Positions 14,565 through 59,701 of a DNA stretch of 64,000 nt are shown here, piece after piece. The stretch is from Cytophagaceae bacterium (GTDB taxonomy: Bacteria > Bacteroidota > Bacteroidia > Cytophagales > Spirosomataceae). The stretch lies in the NCBI GenBank assembly GCA_027491195.1, contig JAIXWQ010000008.1, positions 310,001 through 374,000 on the forward strand. Direction: 5' to 3'. Both the position numbers and the translations under genes were made by a program. Each line of letters starts with the position of its first letter. Position 1 is the first letter of the stretch. Below the pieces are notes generated by a model. That model was not told the origin of the DNA. It was given only the letters and a program-made list of their open reading frames with translations, and ran no database searches.

Positions 14565-15764
14565 TTAAAATCGTGTCAACGCCATCTCCGAGATGGTTTT
14601 TCCAATCGCTAAAGAAGAGGTCGCTGCCGGACTAGGTGCATTTAATACATTGATCACTTTCGCGTCTTCTACGATCGAGAAATCGTCTAATAATCCGCCA
14701 TCGCGATCACAAGCTTGCGCTCTCACACCGGCTCCTCCTTCGACTAAATCGGTGATTTGAATCTCCGGAATTAATACTTGCAAGGCTTTCGTGAAGGCCT
14801 CTTTTGAGAAGCTGCGGTACATTTCGCCTAAACCGGTTTCCCAGTATTTCATGGCTACTTTTTGGAAGCCAGGCCACGTTAAGGTGTCCCAAAGTTCCTT
14901 CGCATCAATTCCTAATTTCTTGTATCCCTCTTTCTTGAATGCCAAAACCGCATTCGGTCCTGCCTCCACGCCACCTTTCATCATACGAGTAAAGTGAACG
15001 CCTAAGAAAGGGAAATTCGGATCTGGGACCGGATAAATCAAGTTCTTAACTAAGTATTCTTTGTCTTTTCTTAATTTGAAATATTCGCCGCGGAATGGCA
15101 CAATACGCACATCCAATGGCTCTTTTTGAGTCATCTGCGCTACTTTATCGGAATAAAGTCCGGCACAGTTGATCACTAATTTTGCCTCGTAAACTGACTT
15201 CGTCGTTTCTACGATTGAGAAGGTCAAGCCTTTCTTGATGTCAATTACCTTTTCGCCTAGGTGCATTTCGCAACCCTTGATTTGCGTTCCCACCGCTAAT
15301 TTTGCAGCCACTGCTCGGTAATCTACGATCCCCGTTTGTGGAACAAACATCCCCTCTACCCCCGTCACGTGCGGTTCGTATTCCTGCATTTCTGCCAGGC
15401 TCAATTTTTTCAATCCATCCAGGCCATTTTGCTGACCTCTTTGGTATAAAGTCTCTAATTGCGCCCGTTGCTCGTGAGTGGAAGCAACAACGATTTTACC
15501 CGTTAATTCAAACGGAATATTCTCCTGTGTACAATAATCAATTAATTGGTGGTAGCCTTCGATACAGTTTTTGGCCTTTAACGAACCCGGCTTATAATAC
15601 AATCCGGAGTGGATAACGCCGGAATTATTGCCTGTTTGGTGCATCGAAACCATGTTTTCTTTCTCAAACAAAGCGATGTGAAGATCAGGTCGCGCCTCTA
15701 ACAAACGATGCGCTGTTGCGAGGCCCACGATGCCGCCGCCTACGATGATTACGTCTAATGCCAT
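14565..15764 (-). CDS. lhgO: L-2-hydroxyglutarate oxidase/dehydrogenase
   Basis: This FAD enzyme of the DAO fold oxidises L-2-hydroxyglutarate to 2-oxoglutarate, a metabolite-repair step. The start at 15764 (MALDVIIVGGGIVGLATAHRL) places the dinucleotide-binding motif at the extreme N-terminus as usual; a longer frame to 15935 runs into the divergent anmK gene. The segment MHQTGNNSGVIHSGLYYKPGSLKA is characteristic of LhgO. The 399-residue length fits the family. It shares a 68-bp divergent promoter region with anmK. Confidence 0.9.
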   Translation of the reverse strand: MALDVIIVGGGIVGLATAHRLLEARPDLHIALFEKENMVSMHQTGNNSGVIHSGLYYKPGSLKAKNCIEGYHQLIDYCTQENIPFELTGKIVVASTHEQRAQLETLYQRGQQNGLDGLKKLSLAEMQEYEPHVTGVEGMFVPQTGIVDYRAVAAKLAVGTQIKGCEMHLGEKVIDIKKGLTFSIVETTKSVYEAKLVINCAGLYSDKVAQMTQKEPLDVRIVPFRGEYFKLRKDKEYLVKNLIYPVPDPNFPFLGVHFTRMMKGGVEAGPNAVLAFKKEGYKKLGIDAKELWDTLTWPGFQKVAMKYWETGLGEMYRSFSKEAFTKALQVLIPEIQITDLVEGGAGVRAQACDRDGGLLDDFSIVEDAKVINVLNAPSPAATSSLAIGKTISEMALTRF

Positions 15765-17883: not shown

Positions 17884-17955
17884 GGCTCCGTAGTTCAATG
17901 GATAGAATGTAGGTTTCCGGTACCTAAGATGAAGGTTCGATTCCTTCCGGGGCTA
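17884..17955 (+). tRNA. tRNA-Arg (anticodon CCG)
   Basis: A cloverleaf can be drawn. The acceptor GGCTCCG pairs with CGGGGCT, the D arm is GTTC...GAAT, the anticodon stem TAGGT/ACCTA encloses the loop TTCCGGT with anticodon CCG, and the T arm is GAAGG-TTCGATT-CCTTC. The discriminator is A and no CCA is encoded. This is the only complete copy; two 3' fragments of it lie at 57,256 and 59,614, marking it as an integration site. Confidence 0.93.
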
Positions 17956-17957
17956 CT
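17906..17957 (+). other. attL: tRNA 3' half repeated downstream
   Basis: 52 bases of the tRNA (17906-17957) recur exactly at 59614-59665, and the last 26 of them (17932-17957) recur at 57256-57281. This is the pattern left by site-specific integration into a tRNA 3' end. Confidence 0.88.
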
Positions 17958-18201: not shown

Positions 18202-19599
18202 TTATGTTTTGCTGTTTGTGCTTTTATCTTTAACTAATGGCTTTAACAGTTTATTTAGATTGTAGAAATTCATAGAATTTGAAATTCGAAATAATTCCAT
18301 TAAAATATCATTCGGGATTTCGTGTTTTCTAGAATTCCAAGTGCTATCTGCTTCATATGAATCCCCTTTCCTTTTTCCAATATATGAGGCGAGTTTGTTT
18401 AAGTTGTAGGCAAACATTTCTAGAAGTACAGGTGAAATAGAAATTTTATATGAAAATTTGAAAATATCTAAATGAATCTTCAAATTATAGTTGTAAGCGT
18501 AAAATGCATTATCAATCGATGCAAGTCGCCATGCCTCATCCATTAATTTTTGATATAATACAAATAAAAGGGTGTCGGGTGATGTTTCTAAAGAGAATAG
18601 AATTTCGAATAAATCTAAACGGAGTTTATCATTTTTAAGTAAATCAAAAATTGTTTGATCGGACATTTCAGATATTTTCTTTATTAAATCATTGAGTTTT
18701 TCATCATCTTTATCCCTATCATGCTTAACTTTTTTTATAGTTTCACCCAATTCCTTTAAAATAGTTTTCAATTCTGTAAACTCAACAAGTATAATGCCAT
18801 TATGATCTATATAGGGATCTTGTCGAACATTTCTTGCTTCTGATACATACAAAAATTGGTAAATGTTATTTGGATAATTTTTACTACTTTCTTGGTAAAC
18901 ATTTTTTGACCAATCCAATGCGGTCAATACATTTATGTCATTTAAGCTGTATCCAATTAATAATGTCGTAGATTCTTTAATTAGCAATGGTAATTTTAGC
19001 TGTCTATAATTATTCGGTCTAAAAAGTTTAATGGAATCTTCATCCGAAATAATGATTGAATTAGGAATCGTCCTTATTCCATGCAAATGATATATTGGAA
19101 TTTTACCCTCCGCTGCAATAAATATTTGATTTTCTGCTGAAATTGATTCTCCTTTAGTAAATATTAATGATTCAATTACTAAATCAAAGTTTGTAGTTAT
19201 TATCCATTTAGGATCAATTTTAAGAATTAACTCCCCATATTCTTTTCTAGTATTTTTATCTGGTATCCATGATGTTTTGTCAGCAATTTTTTGTTTTAAA
19301 TCCAAAGAAGCATCTTCAAAACTTATTCTTTTTTTTTCTGCAATATTTTTAGTCAAAATCGTTACCATTCTTGGATATGAAGCACCTGGATTTTGATTTA
19401 CAATATCTTTTTCAAAATCAATGTCATATTCAAATGCGACGCTTATTAATAAATCTGACCAATTCAATGCAGGCGATTCCCATAATTGATTCATTACTCC
19501 AATTGAAAAGCCCGAACCCAGAAATAACCCCAAATTGCCATACAATGTAGATTTAGCAATTTCTTCCAATACATTTTCGCGTGTAAGCATTTCCTTCAT
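18202..19599 (-). CDS. SIR2-like domain protein, probable anti-phage defence
   Basis: This 465-residue protein has SIR2_2-type NADase features: FLGSGFS (residues 27-32) as the NAD-binding glycine loop, TTNFD (135-139), and the catalytic-type histidine in YHLHG (170-174), followed by LLIGYSLNDINV. The C-terminal half (about 285-465) is helical and not recognised; it may be the sensor. Proteins of this kind act in defence systems that deplete NAD+ on phage infection (Thoeris ThsA and DSR families); that role is inferred here from domain and location. It stands alone at the island edge and is AT-rich. A start three codons later (19590) is equally possible. Confidence 0.75.
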   Translation of the reverse strand: MKEMLTRENVLEEIAKSTLYGNLGLFLGSGFSIGVMNQLWESPALNWSDLLISVAFEYDIDFEKDIVNQNPGASYPRMVTILTKNIAEKKRISFEDASLDLKQKIADKTSWIPDKNTRKEYGELILKIDPKWIITTNFDLVIESLIFTKGESISAENQIFIAAEGKIPIYHLHGIRTIPNSIIISDEDSIKLFRPNNYRQLKLPLLIKESTTLLIGYSLNDINVLTALDWSKNVYQESSKNYPNNIYQFLYVSEARNVRQDPYIDHNGIILVEFTELKTILKELGETIKKVKHDRDKDDEKLNDLIKKISEMSDQTIFDLLKNDKLRLDLFEILFSLETSPDTLLFVLYQKLMDEAWRLASIDNAFYAYNYNLKIHLDIFKFSYKISISPVLLEMFAYNLNKLASYIGKRKGDSYEADSTWNSRKHEIPNDILMELFRISNSMNFYNLNKLLKPLVKDKSTNSKT

Positions 19600-19779: not shown

Positions 19780-20160
19780 ATGGTAATTGTATCAGATTAC
19801 TTCGAGAAGGTCAACTCATCTAATGGCCAAACATTTGTTCTTCTTGAGCTTTCAGGAGGATTAGAACTCGTTCAATCTCAGGCTACGGGTAAGTTCTATG
19901 CTACCAGTCGAAAGTGCAGGATTCCTTCCACTTTCTCAGCTGATGTAGCTAAACTTATGATCGGTCAACAGATTGAGGGAGACATTGTACGGATTGAATC
20001 AGATCCTTATGAGTACACCAACAAAACTACGGGTGAAATCATCACACTAGCTCACAGCTATGCTTACCGACCAAAAGGAAGTATGGAACTACTTGGTGAA
20101 TCTCGGCTTGAAGTGGTTGAGGAGAAGATTAATCAAAATAGTTATAAACTAGCTATCTAA
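19780..20160 (+). CDS. Small island protein, unknown (possible OB-fold)
   Basis: This 126-residue soluble protein is mostly beta by pattern (FVLLELSGGLELVQ, KFYATSRKCRIP, GQQIEGDIVRIESDPYEYT). It shows no catalytic motif. The short strands with a Lys/Arg/Tyr-rich middle would fit an OB-fold, and single-strand-binding proteins often accompany RecA-like phage ATPases as here, but no known family is claimed. It is separated from the ATPase gene by a strong terminator, so it is probably its own transcription unit. Codon use and GC resemble the next three genes and differ from the AT-rich SIR2 gene. Confidence 0.65.
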   Translation: MVIVSDYFEKVNSSNGQTFVLLELSGGLELVQSQATGKFYATSRKCRIPSTFSADVAKLMIGQQIEGDIVRIESDPYEYTNKTTGEIITLAHSYAYRPKGSMELLGESRLEVVEEKINQNSYKLAI

Positions 20161-20242: not shown

Positions 20243-21118
20243 ATGGAATTTCAAACTGCCCAAAGAAAACGGGCTAAAATTAAGATGGCTATACAGGGTC
20301 ATAGCGGTAGCGGTAAGACATATTCTGCCTTGCTTGTTGCTCACGGATTATCTCAATCTTGGGAAAAGGTGGCTGTTATAGATACAGAGAATGAATCATC
20401 TCATCTATACGCTCATCTAGGAGGATACAAGGTATTAGGTATCTCATCCCCATTCGAACCAGAGAAGTACATAGAGGCCATTGATTTCTGTGTTGTTTCG
20501 GGGATTGAAGTGGTGGTTATTGATAGTCTAAGTCATGAGTGGGAATTCTTACTTGATTACCATGGTTCTCTTTCTGGTAATTCATTTACCAATTGGAATA
20601 AGGTTACACCGCGGCACAATGCCTTTGTACAGAAGATCTTGCAAGCACCTGTTCACATCATTGCTACCATACGAACCAAACAGGATTACGTACTAACTGA
20701 AAAGAACGGTAAAACCATACCTGAAAAGGTAGGGCTGAAATCTGTGCAGCGGGATGGTTTAGATTATGAGTTCACACTCGTGTTTGATTTAGACAACAAG
20801 AACCTGGCACATGCTAGCAAAGACCGTACAGGATTGTTCTTTGGAAAGCCAGAACATAAGCTTACCGCTACGACAGGAAACATCATCTCCAAATGGTGCA
20901 TGGAGGAATTAGAGCCTCAAATTGATTACGTGAAAGATCGAATCAATAACGCATCCACCATCATCGAATTACTAGGTCTATACAACCAATTTACCCAATT
21001 TAATGACCTGCTTTTGCCTTATTATGAGAAGAGAAAGCAAGAGCTAAGACAAGCTAAAAATCGTGCCTTGGAAGGCAACTTAAACCCCATTCAATATGAA
21101 CAATCAACTAATAGTTAA
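20243..21118 (+). CDS. RecA-like AAA ATPase of phage type (Sak4-like)
   Basis: This 291-residue P-loop protein has Walker A GHSGSGKT (residues 19-26) and Walker B VVVIDSLSHEW (about 91-101). The early placing of the P-loop, the sequence AVIDTENESSHLYAH after strand 2 and the later IIATIRTKQDY match small phage recombinases of the Sak4/NTP-binding type that pair or anneal single-stranded DNA. The C-terminal 60 residues are helical and charged. It overlaps the DUF3871-like gene by 23 bases. It is probably part of the island's replication or recombination module. Confidence 0.75.
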   Translation: MEFQTAQRKRAKIKMAIQGHSGSGKTYSALLVAHGLSQSWEKVAVIDTENESSHLYAHLGGYKVLGISSPFEPEKYIEAIDFCVVSGIEVVVIDSLSHEWEFLLDYHGSLSGNSFTNWNKVTPRHNAFVQKILQAPVHIIATIRTKQDYVLTEKNGKTIPEKVGLKSVQRDGLDYEFTLVFDLDNKNLAHASKDRTGLFFGKPEHKLTATTGNIISKWCMEELEPQIDYVKDRINNASTIIELLGLYNQFTQFNDLLLPYYEKRKQELRQAKNRALEGNLNPIQYEQSTNS

Positions 21119-22100
21119 TCCATCTATAGAGGTAGAAGAATTCGCTTCTTATATCGAAATAGAAGAGCAAGTAATTGAATCTAGTAGCTCAGCATTTATA
21201 GGAGCTAATACCATCGAGGTAAACCTGCAAGAGATTCAAAGACAACACATCATTCCTGTCTTTAGTAAGGACAATGAACCGCTCATTAGTCACGGGGATT
21301 TTATCCAAACCACATACGATGTGATTAACCATTGCTTCAAGGGGGAAGATATTTTGTCTCCAAGCATCCGTGTTTCTCATCCTATTAAAGGAAGAACACC
21401 TGAAGCACGCTATAAACCAGCTAGTCAACTTGAAGATCACGAAAGAACCATCTATTATGAAAGGGCAATGTTTGTATTCGAGATACCTAGCATCCAACGA
21501 ACCATTGATGGGCAGACGCTCAGTCTAACCATTGGGGGAGTTAAATGCTACGGGGATGATAAACTCAACAACAAGAAAGGATCAGCGGAGCATTTCAAGA
21601 TCTTCATTGGGTTCTCAGTGAAAGTGTGCAGTAACCTTTGTGTTTGGTCAGACGGTGCACAGGTTAAGCTTGTGGTTAGAAGCCAAGGAGAGTTAATGGA
21701 TGCAATAATGAATATGATTAGCATATATAACCCGGAATCACACTTAAGAGCTATGCAGCGGCTTACAGAACACAATCTAACCGAGGCTCAATTTGCACAG
21801 GTGTTAGGTCGTGCGCGATTGTATAATTACCTGCCAATTGAGGTTAAGAAGCTGATACCTCCTCTTTTGTTCACTGATACACAGCTAGGTTCAGTTGCTA
21901 AGGACTACTTTCAAGACAATAGCTTCTGTCGCAATGATGCAGGGGATATTAACCTTTGGAGGATGTACAATCTGTTCACAGGTGCTAACAAGTCAAGTTA
22001 CGTGGATAGCTTCCTAGAACGCAGCGTGAATGCTTTTGAGTTCACACACCAGCTTCAATCAGGTCTTTCTGGAGTAAGCACAAACTGGTACTTAAATTAG
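21096..22100 (+). CDS. DUF3871-like protein
   Basis: This 334-residue protein resembles the Bacteroidota DUF3871 family as I recall it: HIIPVFSKDNEPLISHGDFI near the N-terminus, then the central FKIFIGFSVKVCSNLCVWSDGA with a Cys-Asn-Leu-Cys core reminiscent of the DUF932 family. Members occur on phages, plasmids and integrated elements; no activity is established. It overlaps the ATPase gene and is followed after one base by a 78-residue gene, so the three are cotranscribed. Confidence in the family name is moderate. Confidence 0.6.
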   Translation: MNNQLIVNPSIEVEEFASYIEIEEQVIESSSSAFIGANTIEVNLQEIQRQHIIPVFSKDNEPLISHGDFIQTTYDVINHCFKGEDILSPSIRVSHPIKGRTPEARYKPASQLEDHERTIYYERAMFVFEIPSIQRTIDGQTLSLTIGGVKCYGDDKLNNKKGSAEHFKIFIGFSVKVCSNLCVWSDGAQVKLVVRSQGELMDAIMNMISIYNPESHLRAMQRLTEHNLTEAQFAQVLGRARLYNYLPIEVKKLIPPLLFTDTQLGSVAKDYFQDNSFCRNDAGDINLWRMYNLFTGANKSSYVDSFLERSVNAFEFTHQLQSGLSGVSTNWYLN

Positions 22101-52213: not shown

Positions 52214-52239
52214 AATGGAGGGACATCAGCCCCTCCATT
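52214..52239. terminator. Hairpin between convergent units
   Basis: AATGGAGGG (52214-52222) pairs with CCCTCCATT (52231-52239), bordered by TTTTCA on one side and AAAATG on the other. Likely a leftward terminator behind the DUF5131 remnant, possibly bidirectional. Confidence 0.65.
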
Positions 52240-52251
52240 TTCAATAATAAA

Positions 52252-52311
52252 CTACTGCGGAAATTCCCGAATCTGCAAACTAGTTGGCCACTCCGCCAGT
52301 TCGCCACCAAA
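52252..52311 (-). pseudogene. 3' fragment of a second DUF5131 gene
   Basis: Read on the minus strand, 18 codons plus a stop encode GGELAEWPTSLQIREFPQ. This closely matches the last 18 residues of the intact DUF5131 protein at 53805-54569 (GGEIENWPEHLQIREFPD), with the stop in the same place. The fragment is too short for function, and the DNA identity is only partial, so it is an old paralogous remnant rather than a recent duplication. Confidence 0.75.
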
Positions 52312-52319
52312 ACACTAAT

Positions 52320-53747
52320 TTATTCCCATTTTTCAAGACCCAATTTGGGCACAATCCCTAGGTAATTATTGAACTCTTCTCTGATCACGTGCCTTACATA
52401 ATCCACTTCTGAGGGAATTGTTGCTATGCTATCATGAACAGTAAAGAATGGCAAACTAGGCTTCTCTGCTGTGATTCTCTTTGCAACCACTTCAATGATT
52501 AAAGTGCTCTCTAAACGCTGCATAATGTGTGACAATAGCACGTAATCTTCCTTCTTTAGAAATTCAAATAAGCGCGTTACGGAAGGGAATGCCTTGCTGA
52601 TAAGCTTTTTCTCATCCCAATAATCCTGCTCATTAGAAGAATAAATGTACTGAAAGAAGCTACTTTTTACCTTTCGCTTGTCAAACGGTTTACCAGGATA
52701 GATTTTCCTAAATACTTTTTTGTAAAAAAGGGAAGATTTTGCAAATGAAATATACTCCATACTGTCTTTATTCAACGATTTTAACAAAAAAGTTACACAC
52801 ATAGTATATTGTTTTATGCTGTCCATCAATTCATCAACATGTTCATATGCTTGTATACCATGTATTTTGATGTCTTGTTTAGGTATTTTATAACCAGCTA
52901 TGATGTTCATAGCACTAGGTATCTTGTAAATGTTTAATCCATGGTGTCCATAGGTCCAAAATTCGGCTCTTAAAAGACATGTGCTCAGGAATGGTTGCGA
53001 GTTCCTAACGTCTATATTCACTAGTTTTTGGCCATCATACGTAATGCATGACCTTAGCTCCTTTTTGAGGTTGGTCAAGTTACTGTGAAACCTTCCGATG
53101 TTATTATCCACGTCGCAATAGAAATGCTGCGCTTCAAGTTCTTCAACAACACCAAGGTTCTTTAGGAGTTTGCTTTTGGCTTTTGTTAATTCCTTAGGTT
53201 TGTAATTCTCTTTATTTGCCTCTACTTCAGCGTACATTTTCTTTAGGATCTTTCGCGCGCGTTTTGCTTCAATCTTTAATAAAGGATTAAACCATTTACC
53301 CAAATAAGAATAATTGGTTGCACCAGGAGAAAAAATCACTTTGTAGAATTGGTCAGATTCAATTTTTGCCCTAATGACATTATCCTTAATTGGGATCTCT
53401 TGGAAAGGACATTCGAAATCAATCATTCCTAGGTTGATGCAATATCCGTATGATTTCTCTTCAGGGATGTAATAATCCGTATCAATTATTCCATGGATTT
53501 TAAGATATTCGATATACTCCTTGTAATCATGGTGGAAATTTCGAAAATAGGCAGAATTAATGTTTACAAAGCCTTCAAATTGTTCAGATGTTGATTTGTA
53601 GCTTCGCGCCGTGATTAAATCTATGATGTAATAAAATACATCGATTTTAACCTTCTTTTTGAAAGCAGGTGGATGTTGCTCTAATAATGTAGGAATGGAT
53701 AACCCTGAGGGTATCACCCAAAAGTATATGCCGTGTTTGTTAATCAT
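52320..53747 (-). CDS. Compact family A DNA/RNA polymerase-like protein
   Basis: This 475-residue protein carries the PolA-superfamily motif set in order. Motif A is LVNIDVRNSQPF (Asp246 in the place of the catalytic metal ligand). Motif B is KRKVKSSFFQYIYS (Lys361, Phe365 and Tyr369 line up with Lys758, Phe762 and Tyr766 of E. coli Pol I). IMQRLESTLII (Met409, Gln410) resembles the Pol I region before motif C. Motif C is FFTVHDSIATIPSE (His438, Asp439), also close to the HDSFGTIPAD segment of T7 RNA polymerase. No exonuclease domain is present; residues 1-200 are unrecognised. It sits between the DUF5131 gene and a DUF5131 remnant. The likely role is island replication or priming; DNA versus RNA synthesis cannot be told. 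Confidence 0.75.
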   Translation of the reverse strand: MINKHGIYFWVIPSGLSIPTLLEQHPPAFKKKVKIDVFYYIIDLITARSYKSTSEQFEGFVNINSAYFRNFHHDYKEYIEYLKIHGIIDTDYYIPEEKSYGYCINLGMIDFECPFQEIPIKDNVIRAKIESDQFYKVIFSPGATNYSYLGKWFNPLLKIEAKRARKILKKMYAEVEANKENYKPKELTKAKSKLLKNLGVVEELEAQHFYCDVDNNIGRFHSNLTNLKKELRSCITYDGQKLVNIDVRNSQPFLSTCLLRAEFWTYGHHGLNIYKIPSAMNIIAGYKIPKQDIKIHGIQAYEHVDELMDSIKQYTMCVTFLLKSLNKDSMEYISFAKSSLFYKKVFRKIYPGKPFDKRKVKSSFFQYIYSSNEQDYWDEKKLISKAFPSVTRLFEFLKKEDYVLLSHIMQRLESTLIIEVVAKRITAEKPSLPFFTVHDSIATIPSEVDYVRHVIREEFNNYLGIVPKLGLEKWE

Positions 53748-53804: not shown

Positions 53805-54569
53805 TTAATCAGGGAATTCGCGAATCTGCAAATGTTCTGGCCAATTTTCAATCTCACCACCGTGGCGATCTTTCTTGAATTGGAGCTCTTTGGACAAATG
53901 TGTCCCGAGTTGTTTCATGAATACGGCAGCATCAGTTTGCGTTTTTAAATCTTTGATAGCCTTCTCATACCATTCAATTTGAGATGGTCTGTAACGGAAT
54001 TTACCTGTATCATTTCCTGATTCACCTCCAAGGATAACCCATTGAAAAGCATCAATGATTCGTTCCCCTTCTGCATTTTTAACTAGGAAATCCATTTCCT
54101 CCAAAAGAGGTTCTGCTGAGATGAACCTTACTGCAGCTGGAATTTTAGCTAAATCCTCTGCTCGCTTAAATGAGCTTTGAACCCCAGCAGTGACTCCTAA
54201 CCACACGTTAGGATAACCATCTCCCCAGTCATCTGGTAGACATTGCTTAATCCGCTCAGGTCTCTTTGTAAGAATCAACCAGGTGTGATGTGGGGTTTTG
54301 CGTATAATATCCCACGCTTCTATACGCCATTCGTCAGCATCTTGTATAAAAAAGTCTGACATGGAACACGTGAAGATCCGTTTAGGTTCTTTCCATTTCA
54401 ATGCAGCATTAAACGTTACTTTACCTGTCTTGCGTACCTTTGTTCCGTCACGTCCATAACGTGCTTCTTGGCGCATCATATAACAATGTAAACATTCGAC
54501 AGAAACCTTTTGGCATGCAATCCAGAAATTGACGGTTGCATCCGTCCATTGAATAGTGGACTCTCTCAT
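53805..54569 (-). CDS. DUF5131 / phage Gp37-Gp68 family protein
   Basis: This 254-residue protein has the family N-terminus ESTIQWTDATVNFWIACQKVSVECLHCYMM with Cys19, Cys26 and Cys29 (a radical-SAM-like cysteine cluster), then FTCSMSDFF, WLILTKRPERI, NVWLGVTAG, FISAEPLL and WVILGGESG, all hallmarks of Gp37/Gp68 proteins. The biochemical function is unknown; a radical SAM-like fold and action on nucleic acid have been proposed for relatives. It is one of the commonest phage and island genes. It is followed by the polymerase-like gene and preceded by Xis 4 bases away. Confidence 0.88.
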   Translation of the reverse strand: MRESTIQWTDATVNFWIACQKVSVECLHCYMMRQEARYGRDGTKVRKTGKVTFNAALKWKEPKRIFTCSMSDFFIQDADEWRIEAWDIIRKTPHHTWLILTKRPERIKQCLPDDWGDGYPNVWLGVTAGVQSSFKRAEDLAKIPAAVRFISAEPLLEEMDFLVKNAEGERIIDAFQWVILGGESGNDTGKFRYRPSQIEWYEKAIKDLKTQTDAAVFMKQLGTHLSKELQFKKDRHGGEIENWPEHLQIREFPD

Positions 54570-54573
54570 AATT

Positions 54574-54807
54574 TTAATTATTTATTTTGAAAAAATTAAG
54601 CATCGCAATTACATCGCTGTGCCGATAATAACATTTTGAACCAATTTGACTGAAGATAATCACTCCTGTATCTCTCCATTTTTGGAGCGTCTTTCGAGAC
54701 ACTTTCAAGAGCTCCATTAATTGTTCGGTATTATAGATTGGTTCAACCACCTCCGAACTTAGATTTGCTCGACTTATTTCTGCGAGCCTTGCATTAGAAA
54801 TTTTCAT
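54574..54807 (-). CDS. Excisionase-like helix-turn-helix protein
   Basis: This 77-residue protein has a winged-helix/MerR-type HTH_17: YNTEQLMELLKVSRKTLQKWRDTGVIIFSQIGSKCYYRHSDVIAMLNFF. Small proteins of this type next to tyrosine integrases bend attachment-site DNA and direct excision, or act as element regulators. It ends 4 bases before DUF5131 begins, so it is cotranscribed with it. Confidence 0.82.
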   Translation of the reverse strand: MKISNARLAEISRANLSSEVVEPIYNTEQLMELLKVSRKTLQKWRDTGVIIFSQIGSKCYYRHSDVIAMLNFFKINN

Positions 54808-55041: not shown

Positions 55042-55911
55042 TTAATCGAAGTCTAGGAAGTCATTAATTTTTCCTGCATTAATTGCATCAATTAATTCGT
55101 CCGTTTTATTAAGTATCTCCTTTAACCCAGCACCCTCATGCTTTTTCATTTTAATTTTACGATGGGAGGCGTGAATTTGCTTTAATTCGACTTGCTTGGG
55201 TTTTTTCTTATCCCAAATTTCAAATACGTTTGAAAAGTGGCTAAAGAGATCTAATCTCTGATTCTTTGTTAATCCAGACACTGAACTTAAATACGTTGCT
55301 AATGCGGAAAGCTGTTCAATATTTAATTTAAGAGGAAAACGATCATAATTAGGAGGAGACGAGCTTTGGCCTGCGTCATATTCATATTTATATTTTGAGA
55401 AAATTTCATTCTCTAACTCCTTATAAAACCGAACTAACGTTTTGCTATATAATTCATCATCGACTAAACCTGAATTTTCATCTAATTCATCTTTAATTAG
55501 AGCTAATGTCCTATCAATAAACACCTTAAAATCAAATGATGGAGGTAACTTATCCGCAATTTTCGTTATTGCTTTTATGATTTTTCTTTTGACTTCATTC
55601 AAACCAGATAATGCACCAAACTGTTCATCATCAAAAGAGCCTGTATTAGTTAATTGTAAAGCTGTATCTAGGTCTTCAACACATTTTTCAGAGCAAAATA
55701 CATACGCATCAAAATCAAATTTTACGTTGATTTTCGATATTGTGCTATCCTGTCCTAGATGTAACTCCTCAATCTCTCCATTAAATTCAACAAATGATTT
55801 ATCTGAAGAGAGATAAGGTAGGCTCATGAACTCTTCATTTTTCCCTTTCCACCAATCTAATCCAATATCACATAGCGTCTCGCTAATATAGTTATCTAAT
55901 TTTATCCCCAT
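55042..55911 (-). CDS. Integrase-associated protein, unknown
   Basis: This 289-residue soluble protein starts 6 bases after the integrase stop, so the two are cotranscribed. The middle is helical (LNEVKRKIIKAITKIADKLPPSFDFKVFIDRTLALIKDEL) and the C-terminus lysine-rich (RKIKMKKHEGAGLKEILNKTDELIDAI). One CSEKC pair (about residue 73) is the only cysteine motif. No known family was recognised. Proteins of similar size and place occur beside Bacteroidota integrases, but no function is claimed. Confidence 0.7.
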   Translation of the reverse strand: MGIKLDNYISETLCDIGLDWWKGKNEEFMSLPYLSSDKSFVEFNGEIEELHLGQDSTISKINVKFDFDAYVFCSEKCVEDLDTALQLTNTGSFDDEQFGALSGLNEVKRKIIKAITKIADKLPPSFDFKVFIDRTLALIKDELDENSGLVDDELYSKTLVRFYKELENEIFSKYKYEYDAGQSSSPPNYDRFPLKLNIEQLSALATYLSSVSGLTKNQRLDLFSHFSNVFEIWDKKKPKQVELKQIHASHRKIKMKKHEGAGLKEILNKTDELIDAINAGKINDFLDFD

Positions 55912-55917
55912 TGCTGA

Positions 55918-57111
55918 TTAGTTAAACACTTCCATTGCATCATCTAAATCCTTGTTAACGATCTTAGCATAGATCATTGTCGTGGAAAGATTAGAATGGG
56001 ACATTAATTTGCTTACGTGCGCGATGTTCATTCCTTTTTTCAATGCTAACGTTCCAAAGGTATGTCGTGAAGTATGCGCTGTTACACGTTTTGAAATATT
56101 TGCTTTTGCCGTAATGATTTTTAAGTTTCTATTGATTAAAGCTGTTTTTGCAGATATTTGTTGTTTTAATACATTATTGGGAGCAGAATTTAATGCTTCA
56201 TCCAATACCGGAAAAATAAAGCCTGTCGATTGATTACCTTTTCTGTACTTTGATAAAATCTCTAAAGCGATATTAGGAACTTTTATTGATAAATGGGATT
56301 TCGTCTTTTGAACAAACAAACTTAGGTTGATTCCATCAAAATCCTCCCATCGCAATGTTAAAAGATCAGAAACGCGTATTCCACCTGTAAAACTAGCAAA
56401 CACAAACATATCTTGATGCACCTCCATGAGAGACCCCCTTTTAACACCTACCTTTTGCATTGCAAGAATTTCATCTTCTGTTAAAAAAACTTTTTCTACA
56501 TTTTCCCATTTAAATGAATATTTAGTGAATGGGTTATTTTGCATCTCTATTACTCCTTCCTTAACAGCTTTATTACAAAGCATTTTAAATACTTTAAGAT
56601 TGGAATGTATAGTATTGTTTGCATTGCCGATTGCCTGTAAATGCTTCACATACGTCTTTATAAATTCTACAGTCAATCCTCCAAAAGGCAATGATTTTCC
56701 TTTCAAAAAAAACTTCAGTTTATTTAACATTGAAACGGATTTCCTATGCGTATTATAATGTTCGACTGAATCCAATCCGTCTAAATAACCTTGAAAATAA
56801 TCAAGAAAACTATCTGATCTTTTAGAAACTAGAGATTGCTTCACCTCACTAATTGGAATCGATGGATCACTCAGTTCCAACATCTTTGATTGCGCCTTCG
56901 AAAACATCGTAGCTAGGTGATTATTTGCCCTTGCAGAATTTGGGAATTTGCTTTTAAGACGCTTATTTTTTTCATCCCACATTTCTTCCTTTACCCAGAT
57001 ATCTAGTGAAATGAATGCTGAGGTTCTGTTTTTAGTTAACCTAATAAACAAAGGGCATTCACCATTGGGCTTATGCTTTTCTCGCTTTAAAACAATAGAT
57101 ACGCTTGACAT
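55918..57111 (-). CDS. Tyrosine-type site-specific integrase
   Basis: This is a 397-residue recombinase. The N-terminal arm-binding part (about 1-95) is followed by a SAM-like core-binding domain (about 97-200) and the catalytic domain. Catalytic residues visible: Arg246 (GGIRVSDLLTLRW), Lys271, His346 and Arg349 in TAHTSRHTFGTLAL, His372 (SHSNLST) and the nucleophile Tyr381 (MIYAKI). It lies next to the right attachment site, transcribed inwards from the island end, as usual for elements of this type. It is the probable agent of insertion into tRNA-Arg. Confidence 0.95.
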   Translation of the reverse strand: MSSVSIVLKREKHKPNGECPLFIRLTKNRTSAFISLDIWVKEEMWDEKNKRLKSKFPNSARANNHLATMFSKAQSKMLELSDPSIPISEVKQSLVSKRSDSFLDYFQGYLDGLDSVEHYNTHRKSVSMLNKLKFFLKGKSLPFGGLTVEFIKTYVKHLQAIGNANNTIHSNLKVFKMLCNKAVKEGVIEMQNNPFTKYSFKWENVEKVFLTEDEILAMQKVGVKRGSLMEVHQDMFVFASFTGGIRVSDLLTLRWEDFDGINLSLFVQKTKSHLSIKVPNIALEILSKYRKGNQSTGFIFPVLDEALNSAPNNVLKQQISAKTALINRNLKIITAKANISKRVTAHTSRHTFGTLALKKGMNIAHVSKLMSHSNLSTTMIYAKIVNKDLDDAMEVFN

Positions 57112-57255: not shown

Positions 57256-57317
57256 AAGGTTCGATTCCTTCCGGGGCTACTCCATTAAAAAGGACATTTC
57301 GAAAGATGTGTCCTTTT
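57256..57317 (+). other. attR of the large island: tRNA-Arg 3' end plus original terminator
   Basis: The first 26 bases repeat the tRNA 3' end (17932-17957). All 62 bases recur exactly at 59640-59701, including the terminator hairpin AAAAAGGACA/TGTCC with T-run. So this copy is both the right end of the large island and the left end of the second element. Confidence 0.85.
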
Positions 57318-57338
57318 GTATTTTAAGAAAAACTGAAC

Positions 57339-57361
57339 TTGTGTAGCAGATTTGTGTAGCA
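57339..57361 (+). repeat. Two TTGTGTAGCA sites, left end of the second element
   Basis: Exact copies at 57339-57348 and 57352-57361, 13 bases apart, 22 bases inside the repeat. Matched by related sites near the right end at 59513, 59524 and 59556. Confidence 0.65.
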
Positions 57362-57461
57362 AGTGAAAATTATAATAAAAAAACTGTCTATTATTTTGGG
57401 ACACTTACACGTAGAACTCAATTTAGAGGATTATTCTATTAATGATTTAGATGACTAGCGA

Positions 57462-59234
57462 TTATGGTTTTATACTTTTTGCATACTCATCATATTGATA
57501 AAAGTCTTGTTCAAAAAATATGTCCGTAAGTCTAATAAATACGGATTTGTTGGTCAAAGTTTTACTAAAATTCTCACTATCAATGTATGAAAAATCTTTT
57601 CTCCCATCACCATTGAAGTCATAAAGTACTAACCATGGTTTCCAAAATCCAGGGGACTTACCTACTTTACGAATTACATTGTTGGAATAAAAAATTTTAT
57701 CCTCTCCTATTTTGAATGACCCATCTTTTTGTTGAATATGCAGAACGAAGTAATAATTATCATAAGCAACAGAACCAGCCACTAAAATGTCTTTCAACCC
57801 ATCTCCATTGAAATCAAAGGCTCGCATGTCATGATTCGTTGCTGCGGTGCTATTTGCAACAGGAGTACTAAAATATGGTTGTAATAACTTTAGTCCATTT
57901 TTATTGAAAACACCGTTCCCTTGATTTATGAGTACTCGATTCTGCAGGTCAAATGGCAAAGTTGTCTCTATCGTTTTAGAGTTTTCATTACTCCCTTCAA
58001 TAATGTCATTCCAACCATCATTATTAACATCGGCGATGGTAATATTATTTACTCCACCGGCAGCTTCAGGAAACGAGTTGTTATTATCCCAAATATTGAA
58101 CATTGTTATATTAGTACCGAAGTAAGGATAGTTAGGTATTCCCCATGTGATATAAACAATACTACCTGTGGCTACAACTAAATCGAAATTTCCATCATTA
58201 TTAAGGTCACCAATATCTCCTCCATGATTGTACATAAGACTTGGCGTAACACTTATTTCCTTTAGGTCATATCCACCTCTTCCATCAGATAAAACTATTC
58301 TAATTGGCTGAAGTGGTGCATTCGAAAGAACATCATCACCATGGTCAAGAATTATGGCGTCAGTGTAACCGTCTTTGTTAAGGTCAACAGATATGGTTCT
58401 TCTTGGATTACCTCCAAAAGATGTTAAATTGTTATTAAGCAAGTTCTTATTTTCATAGGTTTTAAGAGTAGGATTCCAAATTAACCATTGGTTATTATCT
58501 ACAACTTTACCATTAAATGAGCCTGTGCCCGGGTTATATATGTCTATCCATCCATCTTTATTAAAATCTCCAGCAATGACCTGAGGAAAGAAGCAAGACC
58601 CTGTTGTACCGTTGGGTTTTTTAAAGAATTTGTCACCAATTACATCCCACATAACACCACAATCTCTCCAATAATTAGGTTCATCAGATTTTGTAAACGG
58701 CTGAACTTTATAACCTGGAAAAACTAATGGTTTAAAAGTAGCTTTAAGGTTGACAGGTTTATCAACAACTACTTCAAATGGGTTAGCAGGACTTATTAAA
58801 TCACCAGACCATCCTACAAATACATTGTTAAGGTCCGGTTGAGCAGTTATTCTTACAAGAGTATTATGTGGATATAGAGATTGAGGTGCGACCGCTGAAA
58901 TCTCTTCTTTGACCGTTCCATTACCTTCTATTGTCAACGTTAATGGATATTGCCTTTTTTCAAATACACCTGTCACCTGTTTATCCGTGTCCATTGTAAT
59001 TGAAGTCGGATTATTGGTGCCAGAAACACCACCCTGCCATTGTTTGAAGATGTATTCAGGTGCCGGAGTTGCAACCAATGACACTATTGTACCTTTTTCA
59101 AACGCATTAGTAAGTGGTGAAACAGCACCTCCTCTAATTGGAGTAACATCAACTGTTAATTTCTGTTGAATAATCTCCTTTGAACATGCTAGAAACAGCA
59201 AAGAGAAAAATAAGAATAAGATGTTTTTAAACAT
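57462..59234 (-). CDS. Surface lipoprotein with InlB-type B repeats and FG-GAP/VCBS repeats
   Basis: This 590-residue protein has the lipobox FLACS (Cys17). Residues about 22-170 hold two bacterial B-repeat-like modules (VTPIRGGAVSPLTNAFEKGTIVSL...FKQWQGGVSG; EGNGTVKEEI...FVGWSGDLIS). After a linker come at least six FG-GAP/VCBS-type calcium motifs of the DxNxDG form: DFNKDGWIDIY, DLNKDGYTDAI, DLNNDGNFDLV, DVNNDGWNDII, DFNGDGLKDIL and DFNGDGRKDFS, which would make a beta-propeller. It is probably an adhesin or surface-binding protein. It is the only intact gene of the second element. Confidence 0.85.
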   Translation of the reverse strand: MFKNILFLFFSLLFLACSKEIIQQKLTVDVTPIRGGAVSPLTNAFEKGTIVSLVATPAPEYIFKQWQGGVSGTNNPTSITMDTDKQVTGVFEKRQYPLTLTIEGNGTVKEEISAVAPQSLYPHNTLVRITAQPDLNNVFVGWSGDLISPANPFEVVVDKPVNLKATFKPLVFPGYKVQPFTKSDEPNYWRDCGVMWDVIGDKFFKKPNGTTGSCFFPQVIAGDFNKDGWIDIYNPGTGSFNGKVVDNNQWLIWNPTLKTYENKNLLNNNLTSFGGNPRRTISVDLNKDGYTDAIILDHGDDVLSNAPLQPIRIVLSDGRGGYDLKEISVTPSLMYNHGGDIGDLNNDGNFDLVVATGSIVYITWGIPNYPYFGTNITMFNIWDNNNSFPEAAGGVNNITIADVNNDGWNDIIEGSNENSKTIETTLPFDLQNRVLINQGNGVFNKNGLKLLQPYFSTPVANSTAATNHDMRAFDFNGDGLKDILVAGSVAYDNYYFVLHIQQKDGSFKIGEDKIFYSNNVIRKVGKSPGFWKPWLVLYDFNGDGRKDFSYIDSENFSKTLTNKSVFIRLTDIFFEQDFYQYDEYAKSIKP

Positions 59235-59312
59235 TATTATAAGTTGTATTACTTTAACATTAGTTCAACTAAGTTTAAAGTTAGAGGATTATTTATAAAG
59301 AGGAATACCTAA

Positions 59313-59450
59313 TTATAAATTCCAAACAACATAATTCACCACACCCTCTATTTGATTCTCCGCTCTATCTTCCAATTGTGGGAAGAAATCGATTCCTGTC
59401 CTTTTCTCTATCTCATCAACTGATACTTCGAAACAATCTTCCAACCTCAT
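59313..59450 (-). pseudogene. C-terminal fragment of a DNA/RNA non-specific endonuclease
   Basis: A 45-codon stretch on the minus strand encodes FEVSVDEIEKRTGIDFFPQL, then EDRAENQIEG. The VSVDEIE-x-x-TGIDFFPxL pattern is the C-terminal signature of NucA/NUC1-type endonucleases. The catalytic DRGH region is absent, and the frame is closed just upstream, so this is a remnant. Confidence 0.6.
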
Positions 59451-59512
59451 CAAACAAATTTATTGAGCTCTGAAACATCCCCCAAATTACAAGACGTTTT
59501 GGAAGTTGAAAT

Positions 59513-59565
59513 TTGTGCAGCACTTGTGAAGCAAAACACTTAAAAACTACCATTTTGCTACACAA
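59513..59565. repeat. Arm-like sites at the right end of the second element
   Basis: TTGTGCAGCA (59513), TTGTGAAGCA (59524) and TGCTACACAA (59556, inverted exact copy of TTGTGTAGCA) lie 49-101 bp inside the right attachment copy. Confidence 0.6.
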
Positions 59566-59613
59566 AAAGACCCAAATATGGTCTTTAAGTGAAATAAACA
59601 CATGTTTTGTAAT

Positions 59614-59701
59614 AATGTAGGTTTCCGGTACCTAAGATGAAGGTTCGATTCCTTCCGGGGCTACTCCATTAAAAAGGACATTTCGAAAGATGTGTCCTTT
59701 T
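59614..59701 (+). other. Rightmost attachment copy: tRNA-Arg 3' half plus terminator
   Basis: Bases 59614-59665 equal 17906-17957 of the tRNA gene; 59640-59701 equal 57256-57317. It lacks the tRNA 5' half and cannot be functional. The chromosome resumes to its right. Confidence 0.85.

Follow-up and report, generated by a model that had tools for sequence, protein, structure and literature searches.

The window, that is, the whole 64,000-nucleotide stretch analysed here (positions 310,001 to 374,000 of contig JAIXWQ010000008.1 of a Cytophagaceae bacterium), carries on the minus strand at 52320–53747 an intact, full-length frame with an ATG start that encodes a polymerase of 475 aa, designated TV-Pol-like on the basis of conserved columns, a structural model and a profile alignment. 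The frame, the motifs quoted for it in the first-pass annotation and their residue numbering are all present in the sequence. The gene lies within an integrated element of 39.3 kb (17957–57280), which carries a large set of sugar-utilisation genes and is bounded on both sides by the end of a tRNA gene.

The element starts directly behind an intact tRNA-Arg(CCG) gene (17884–17956, plus strand), which is the target of integration and the 3' end of which represents the left attachment copy. The right attachment copy (57256–57280, plus strand) repeats the last 25 bp of this tRNA and is located about 145 bp from the integrase gene. The 3' end of the tRNA, GGTTCGATTCCTTCCGGGGCTAC, occurs in three copies in the window, while none is expected (0 in 100 shuffles). 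In the relatives G019 and G008 the element is absent at this site, and the tRNA is joined directly to the sequence that follows 57256 in the window; the 39.3 kb in between are therefore a precise insert. The integrative island proposed earlier is thus confirmed, but its size is far larger than the gene neighbourhood of the polymerase frame. The last of the three copies spans 51 bp (59614–59664) and closes an older unit of 2.4 kb (57281–59613), the 590-aa gene of which is present in both G019 and G008, and the closing tRNA copy of which aligns in G008 only. This gene (57465–59234) was considered as a part of the island and rejected because it adjoins the empty site in both relatives, outside the 39.3-kb insert.

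The far end of the element is arranged in the order polymerase, DUF5131, HTH, 289-aa protein and integrase, all on the minus strand. Between the HTH gene and the polymerase lies a DUF5131 protein of 254 aa (53805–54569; PF07505, E = 3.1e-56), which also matches the PADLOC candidate defence families PDC-M41B and PDC-M30B and, far below the cut-off, a radical SAM mobile pair family. It is followed by an excisionase-like HTH_17 protein of 77 aa (54574–54807), by the 289-aa protein (55042–55911), for which no family was found and whose place in the sister elements is mostly taken by proteins of 277–319 aa, and by a tyrosine recombinase (integrase) of 397 aa (55918–57111). At the opposite end, near the tRNA gene, a SIR2_2-domain protein of 465 aa (18202–19599, minus strand), a relative of which is found in the element of G030, precedes the second core of the island. 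This core is encoded on the plus strand and comprises a 126-aa SSB-like protein (19780–20160), an AAA_24/RecA-like ATPase of 291 aa (20243–21118), which we take to be Sak4-like, and a DUF3871 protein of 334 aa (21096–22100). The model of the 126-aa protein is OB-like (b-b-b-a-b-b; pLDDT 78.3, with 48 of the 126 residues at 90 or above and the last 22 below 50) and is nearest to SSB and PriB, one or the other of which appears in 42 of the best 50 rows against PDB (lowest E = 0.013, no row reaching 0.001). The SSB-like gene lies about 32 kb from the polymerase on the integrated map and about 5.4 kb from it across the attachment site on the circle. The cargo stretch (22534–49108), of which 10 proteins were scanned, is a sugar-utilisation cluster with an epimerase, GalT, GalK, two GH43 proteins, a Na/solute symporter, SusD, a SusC-like receptor, a DUF5703 protein and an alpha-L-fucosidase.

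Relatives of the 475-aa protein were detected in 18 of the 149 genomes around the source genome. A 20-row profile detected them in 18 of 395 genomes from the phylum as a whole; the two hit lists overlap, with 4 genomes in both. For 36 fetched loci, each with one family member, we built an alignment of 34 rows, leaving out two short members (L065, 257 aa, and L094, 315 aa). Two columns are invariant (R219 and D439, 34/34 each), four are kept in 33 of 34 rows (D246, Y342, K361 and E413), three in 31 of 34 (R232, Q410 and H438) and Q251 in 28 of 34; the conservation of R219, D246, K361 and D439 indicates that the motif set noticed at first is more than a chance resemblance. The Tyr369 column is occupied by Tyr in 8 and by Phe in 22 of 34 rows. 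In the 33-row set, 21 rows have Phe and 7 have Tyr eight residues beyond Lys361; four residues before this fingers Lys there is Arg in 25 rows and Lys in 5, the window protein having Lys-xxx-Lys. The member at L082:9522–11582 is a fusion of 686 aa with C-terminal NUMOD1 and sub-cut-off GIY-YIG homing-endonuclease parts. That the window gene is a decaying relic without function is barely credible: a remnant of another gene adjoins it, so the region has been rearranged, but the frame is full-length, the catalytic residues are kept, and dN/dS against the 88% identical copy of G030 is 0.056 (at a dS of 1.2, which is near saturation).

In the Pfam scan, the sole match of the 475-aa protein was RNA_pol (PF00940) at motif C (E = 0.003), which is sub-threshold with 16.9 bits against a cut-off of 22, and PF00476 (DNA_pol_A) gave no match at E 1. 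Two PHROG families named RNA polymerase (414 and 2051) matched at E = 0.008–0.009. NCBIfam had no match for the polymerase, the sequence search of PDB returned unrelated chains only (best E = 0.23 with the single protein and 0.38 with the 20-row profile), and the scan of IMG/VR with the window protein gave three pattern matches, none of them a relative. By tblastn, six huge-phage records match the polymerase, and two of them (L140 and L141; 595 and 735 kb) were confirmed by profile. The phage family phrog_4756, which has no function assigned, is matched by 9 of the 34 members, the window protein not being among them, and could be annotated as TV-Pol-like. The named matches would fit a T7-type single-subunit RNA polymerase that transcribes the island's own genes, which we consider very unlikely: they span only 32–55 residues around the HDS motif, the Pfam one lies below its cut-off, and the predicted fold points elsewhere.

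The AlphaFold model of the protein (pLDDT 88.9, pTM 0.87) places Asp246 in the strand 243–247 and Asp439 in the turn between the strands 434–437 and 440–443. Foldseek comparison of this model with PDB, a check of the kind suggested by the first-pass annotation, gave 85 matches at E ≤ 0.001. Each of the best 50 is a family A DNA polymerase (lowest E = 6.0e-6), which counts against an RNA polymerase. In the same best 50 of 85 matches, the TM-scores are 0.19–0.36 and the rmsd is 12–21 Å, so whole chains do not superpose. The closest viral models are A0A516L5C2 (E = 2.6e-22) and A0A8D9FR19 (E = 1.2e-17), the latter annotated as a putative DNA polymerase I and coming from an uncultured marine phage. 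Five residues downstream of the motif A Asp, 28 of 33 rows have Gln and 3 have His; this position presumably corresponds to Glu710 in E. coli Pol I and to Gly542 in T7 RNA polymerase, and a bulky side chain here fits DNA synthesis, which is a further point against transcription. We infer from this column that the polymerase would make DNA rather than RNA. Conserved columns and the model together support the earlier description of a compact polymerase of the PolA superfamily, with no recognised exonuclease domain, on an integrative island.

The first-pass annotation knew of no named family for this protein, but such proteins are covered by the transposon-virus polymerases (TV-Pols) of Iyer, Abhiman and Aravind (2008; PMC2579912). 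TV-Pols have 400–600 residues, reside in mobile elements, including those of bacteroidetes, and were proposed to be primase-polymerases; they lack a nuclease and have a two-helix antiparallel thumb, a hairpin with an absolutely conserved Arg, an Asp pair in an RRM-type palm, and fingers with an RxxxK motif and a conserved Asp (PMC2579912). They are linked to a D5 helicase or, in another subset, to an integrase or resolvase (PMC2579912). The window family resembles them in size, in the absence of a nuclease domain, in putative thumb helices, hairpin Arg, palm Asp pair and fingers RxxxK, and in its location on mobile elements with an integrase, Bacteroidetes members being named in that description (PMC2579912). 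In the model, the helices 161–177 and 184–205, the strands 211–213 and 220–222 (the Arg219 hairpin) and the palm strands follow each other in an order that fits the predicted TV-Pol architecture.

For a profile comparison, four TV-Pol references were used (the LMM01 protein, two Polaromonas plasmid proteins and one Calothrix protein) together with a family profile of 33 rows, from which the 686-aa fusion was left out. The hhalign probability for the family against these references was 94.6 (E = 7.2e-8) over 357 columns, which does not support the view that a named family is lacking. Against 6 rows of T7-type RNA polymerases the probability was 4.9, and against 20 Pol I rows it was 2.2, a weak test as these rows come from one order; both alignments cover motif C only. 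The controls did not exceed 0.1; these were the reversed profile, compared with each of the three sets, and 20 column shuffles, compared with TV-Pol only. With the same small sets, known relatives scored 0.2 (Pol I against T7-type RNA polymerase) and 31.4 (TV-Pol against Pol I); since hhalign fails here on known relatives, low scores exclude little, and the difference between 4.9 and 94.6 speaks against the RNA polymerase as an argument that is weak for distant kin. In the joint alignment, Arg219, Asp246 and Lys361 are shared by 4/4 references, Gln410, Glu413 and His438 by 3/3 of those reaching this region, and Asp439 by 2/3. Of the RxxxK motif, Lys is kept in 4/4 and Arg in 0/4 references. 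The protein at L098:22746–24266, which we take to be the LMM01 TV-Pol, has Asn instead of Asp in motif C and may be inactive. The fingers Asp of the 2008 description has no corresponding column in the 33 family rows and none common to the four references, and because of this we regard the family as a branch related to TV-Pol and not as a proven member.

To place the island among its relatives, we turn to the second core. Among the 149 genomes, the 126-aa gene is present in 13 and DUF3871 in 17, and a tRNA gene lies within 1.5 kb of the 126-aa/DUF3871 module in 9 of 16 fetched places. Five of 11 cases showed a copy of the tRNA end that is 14 bases or longer: the window, the G030 element (16 bp of tRNA-Arg(ACG), beside the integrase), two G015 elements (45 bp of tRNA-Thr and 17 bp of tRNA-Val, also beside integrases) and contig 44 of G017. 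In the same 11 cases, no copy was found in G031, G011, G019, G067 and G137, and G084 had only an internal match of 15 bases. The G030 element has the same two ends as the window element, with an 88% identical polymerase and different genes between. In L201, two tRNA-Phe ends (359–415 and 14744–14817) flank a stretch of 14.3 kb that contains the SSB-like/AAA_24/DUF3871 core and an integrase match, and in which no replication gene was recognised.

The slot for the replication gene near the integrase and HTH genes could be read in 7 of the 11 places of the genus that carry the 126-aa gene; omitted from this count were G011 (polymerase on another contig), G016 (outside the fetched set), G017 contig 44 (replication gene unrecognised) and G019 (contig end). 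We define the slot as the gene right after the HTH gene, except that in the two TV-Pol elements it is the second one, with DUF5131 between. The HTH protein precedes the slot in 6 of the 7 places, the D5 element of G015 having an unlabelled 107-aa ORF there. TV-Pol occupies the slot in 2/7 (G000, the window element, and G030), a D5 helicase in 4/7 (G031, G010, G017 and one G015 element) and DUF3987 in 1/7 (the other G015 element). Three of the D5 proteins were checked for the Pfam domains D5_N/DUF5906; the fourth, that of G031, matches the G017 one (phmmer, 1.5e-171). Neither the polymerase nor D5 was found in the fetched stretches of seven DUF3871 places outside the genus (G084, G067, G061, G078, G051, G137 and G138). 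Judging by these gene arrangements, sister elements of one genus share a core and differ in the putative replication gene, which is TV-Pol, D5 helicase or DUF3987. The integrase of the G030 element, which has TV-Pol, shares 77.6% identity with the integrase of the DUF3987 element and 52–54% with those of G000, G010 and G017; the integrases of G031 and of the G015 D5 element are distant from it, the G031 one being without a phmmer label and recognised by blastp alone (about 24%). The SSB-like gene is also present in the D5 and DUF3987 elements, and for this reason a special polymerase–SSB pair of the CCPol-MP type was rejected.

The occupation of the slot by a D5 helicase in sister elements is one more point against an RNA polymerase. 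It also bears on the possibility that the gene is cargo and encodes a polymerase for repair, recombination or defence that is dispensable for replication of the element. Such a role would be in line with the SIR2_2 and DUF5131 proteins of the element (the latter through its PDC-M41B candidate defence match), with restriction-modification genes that recur near family members, and with a Hymenobacter plasmid that has its own Rep. We nevertheless find it quite unlikely, as the slot holds D5 or DUF3987 in the sisters, whereas the cargo of the window and G030 elements differs, and PADLOC has no match for the polymerase. The link to defence in PMC10853773 is confined to a mention in the reference list.

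Directly behind the polymerase lies a remnant of 96 bp (52214–52309, minus strand), which is 80.2% identical (E = 2e-20) to the 3' end of the DUF5131 gene of G031 and the 37 bp that follow this gene. The remnant also resembles the end of the DUF5131 gene of the window itself, with 70% identity over 50 nt without gaps, of which blastn aligns 21 bases only. In G030, a longer stretch of this kind, of at least 243 bp (78.6%, E = 2e-53), is found about 0.9 kb behind the polymerase, and in 1.87 Mb of loci there was no match at E 0.001 beyond the remnant itself, G031 and G030. In G031 the D5 helicase is followed by the DUF5131 gene, while in the window DUF5131 comes before the polymerase. We take the remnant as a probable footprint of gene exchange, in which a DUF5131–TV-Pol cassette would have replaced an older segment ending in a DUF5131 gene of the D5 type. 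The remnant indicates this former DUF5131 gene and not the helicase itself, which is likely to have once occupied the slot of the window element. Since the polymerase is found where the sisters keep a helicase, with a gene scrap behind it of the kind seen in a helicase-type element, elements integrated at tRNA sites appear to exchange the gene that copies them.

In the family as a whole, 19 of 36 loci have an ORF from the BLAST cluster of the integrase no more than 7 kb from the polymerase (in L081 as a 189-aa piece only), against about 0.8 of 36 expected from 123 matches in 29 genomes of about 87 Mb, a different genome set in which split matches were counted; in 17 of the 36 loci no such integrase lies within 7 kb. 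A D5 relative better than E 0.75 was not found in the 36 loci (up to 20 kb each, searched with a four-sequence profile). Relatives of AAA_24 occur in 5, of DUF3871 in 3 and of the 126-aa gene in 2 of these loci, and in L082 the core forms one run (integrase, two ORFs, 126-aa relative, AAA_24, DUF3871, an 83-aa ORF and the polymerase). Among the 133 nearest neighbours (25 of 56 families listed) there are at least one DUF3987 and at least two BT4734-like_N proteins, so a few loci may pair the polymerase with another replication protein. The Hymenobacter plasmid, which carries a profile-confirmed family member, was rejected as a case of the polymerase being the sole replicator because a replication initiation protein is annotated there.

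The tRNA-directed integrase, the Sak4-like ATPase, the SSB-like protein and the D5-type helicase of the sisters are phage-like genes, and nine of the 34 family members (the window protein not included) match a phage family, as mentioned above. The element might consequently be regarded as a phage satellite of the P4 or PICI kind, or as a degraded prophage, the polymerase of which copies it after helper induction. We think this unlikely: capsid, terminase and packaging genes were not recognised among the ORFs read by eye, part of which were also profile-scanned, and an element of 39.3 kb that includes sugar-utilisation genes is large for a phage satellite.

The explanation that we prefer, with a probability of roughly two in three, is that the gene product is an exonuclease-less family A polymerase of the TV-Pol type, which acts as replication protein for a cargo element that integrates at tRNA genes. 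It brings together the precision of the insertion, the set of core genes, the conservation of catalytic residues, the palm-type model and the presence of D5 helicase or DUF3987 in the same slot of sister elements. The best reading is a predicted replication protein of the primase-polymerase type; its likeliest function would be replication of the excised element, and priming is possible. The genomic context thus points in the direction of the earlier proposal that the enzyme is used for the island's own copying. The integrase, aided by the HTH protein, would excise the element at the tRNA-Arg repeats, and the polymerase would then prime and/or extend DNA on the excised circle, presumably assisted by the SSB-like protein and the Sak4-like ATPase of the element and by a host helicase. 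As a result, the excised circle would not be lost, or could spread. Priming, use on the circle and reliance on the host helicase are the parts of this scheme that we infer.

A more far-reaching version, possible but doubtful, is that TV-Pol is a self-sufficient replication initiator which displaced the D5 helicase gene by recombination next to DUF5131. One protein would then recognise the origin, prime and copy the circle, with the host helicase only; the order of secondary-structure elements, on which alone this point is based, suggests a winged-helix-like region at the N-terminus of the polymerase. If so, these elements would form an exchange system that exists in nature, with initiators of the helicase and polymerase kind as cassettes that can replace one another.

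Several known systems resemble the element under the preferred reading, that is, replication by a TV-Pol-type polymerase. Compared with the TV-Pols described so far, the window family has no conserved fingers Asp, no D5 helicase was found in its 36 loci (four-sequence profile), and TV-Pol sits here in a slot where sisters have a helicase, in an element with an SSB-like/Sak4-like/DUF3871 core and sugar cargo. The D5-type sister elements have the same core and integrase, the HTH protein in most cases and a tRNA-end copy in G015 contig 15, but a D5 helicase in place of TV-Pol. In the available text of the reports on CCPol-MP, or PolA-SSB primases, of SCC elements (PMC7581432, PMC10061031), a family A polymerase is combined with an OB-fold ssDNA-binding protein. 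The likeness concerns a family A polymerase on an integrative element, an OB-fold partner (an OB-like model in our case) and a role in a replication module. As far as that text goes, CCPol is described as close to Pol I, whereas the window family aligns with Pol I rows at motif C only, and the polymerase, SSB and helicase genes of CCPol are adjacent, whereas here the SSB-like gene is found at the opposite end of the element, and helicase-type elements have it too. The PolA-SSB arrangement, with an OB-fold gene between polymerase and helicase, is not seen at the window, where the polymerase is flanked by the remnant and DUF5131. Tycheposons, compared by the description available in PMC10872708, share a tRNA border, a tyrosine recombinase and large metabolic cargo, and are reported there from other phyla.

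TV-Pol, its place in mobile elements and the primase action of CCPol-MP were known before. As far as our literature searches show, Bacteroidota tRNA elements that combine sugar cargo with TV-Pol are new, and so is the proposed exchange of helicase and polymerase in one slot. In the literature surveyed, CCPol is the only related enzyme with reported biochemistry, and its authors, writing in 2020, knew of no other TV-Pol that had been characterised (PMC7581432). The element described here is a vehicle with defined ends, integrated at a tRNA gene, that carries a sugar-utilisation cluster in Bacteroidota. As its sisters share the core and differ in the replication gene, the question of whether TV-Pol is a primase-polymerase may become testable by exchange.
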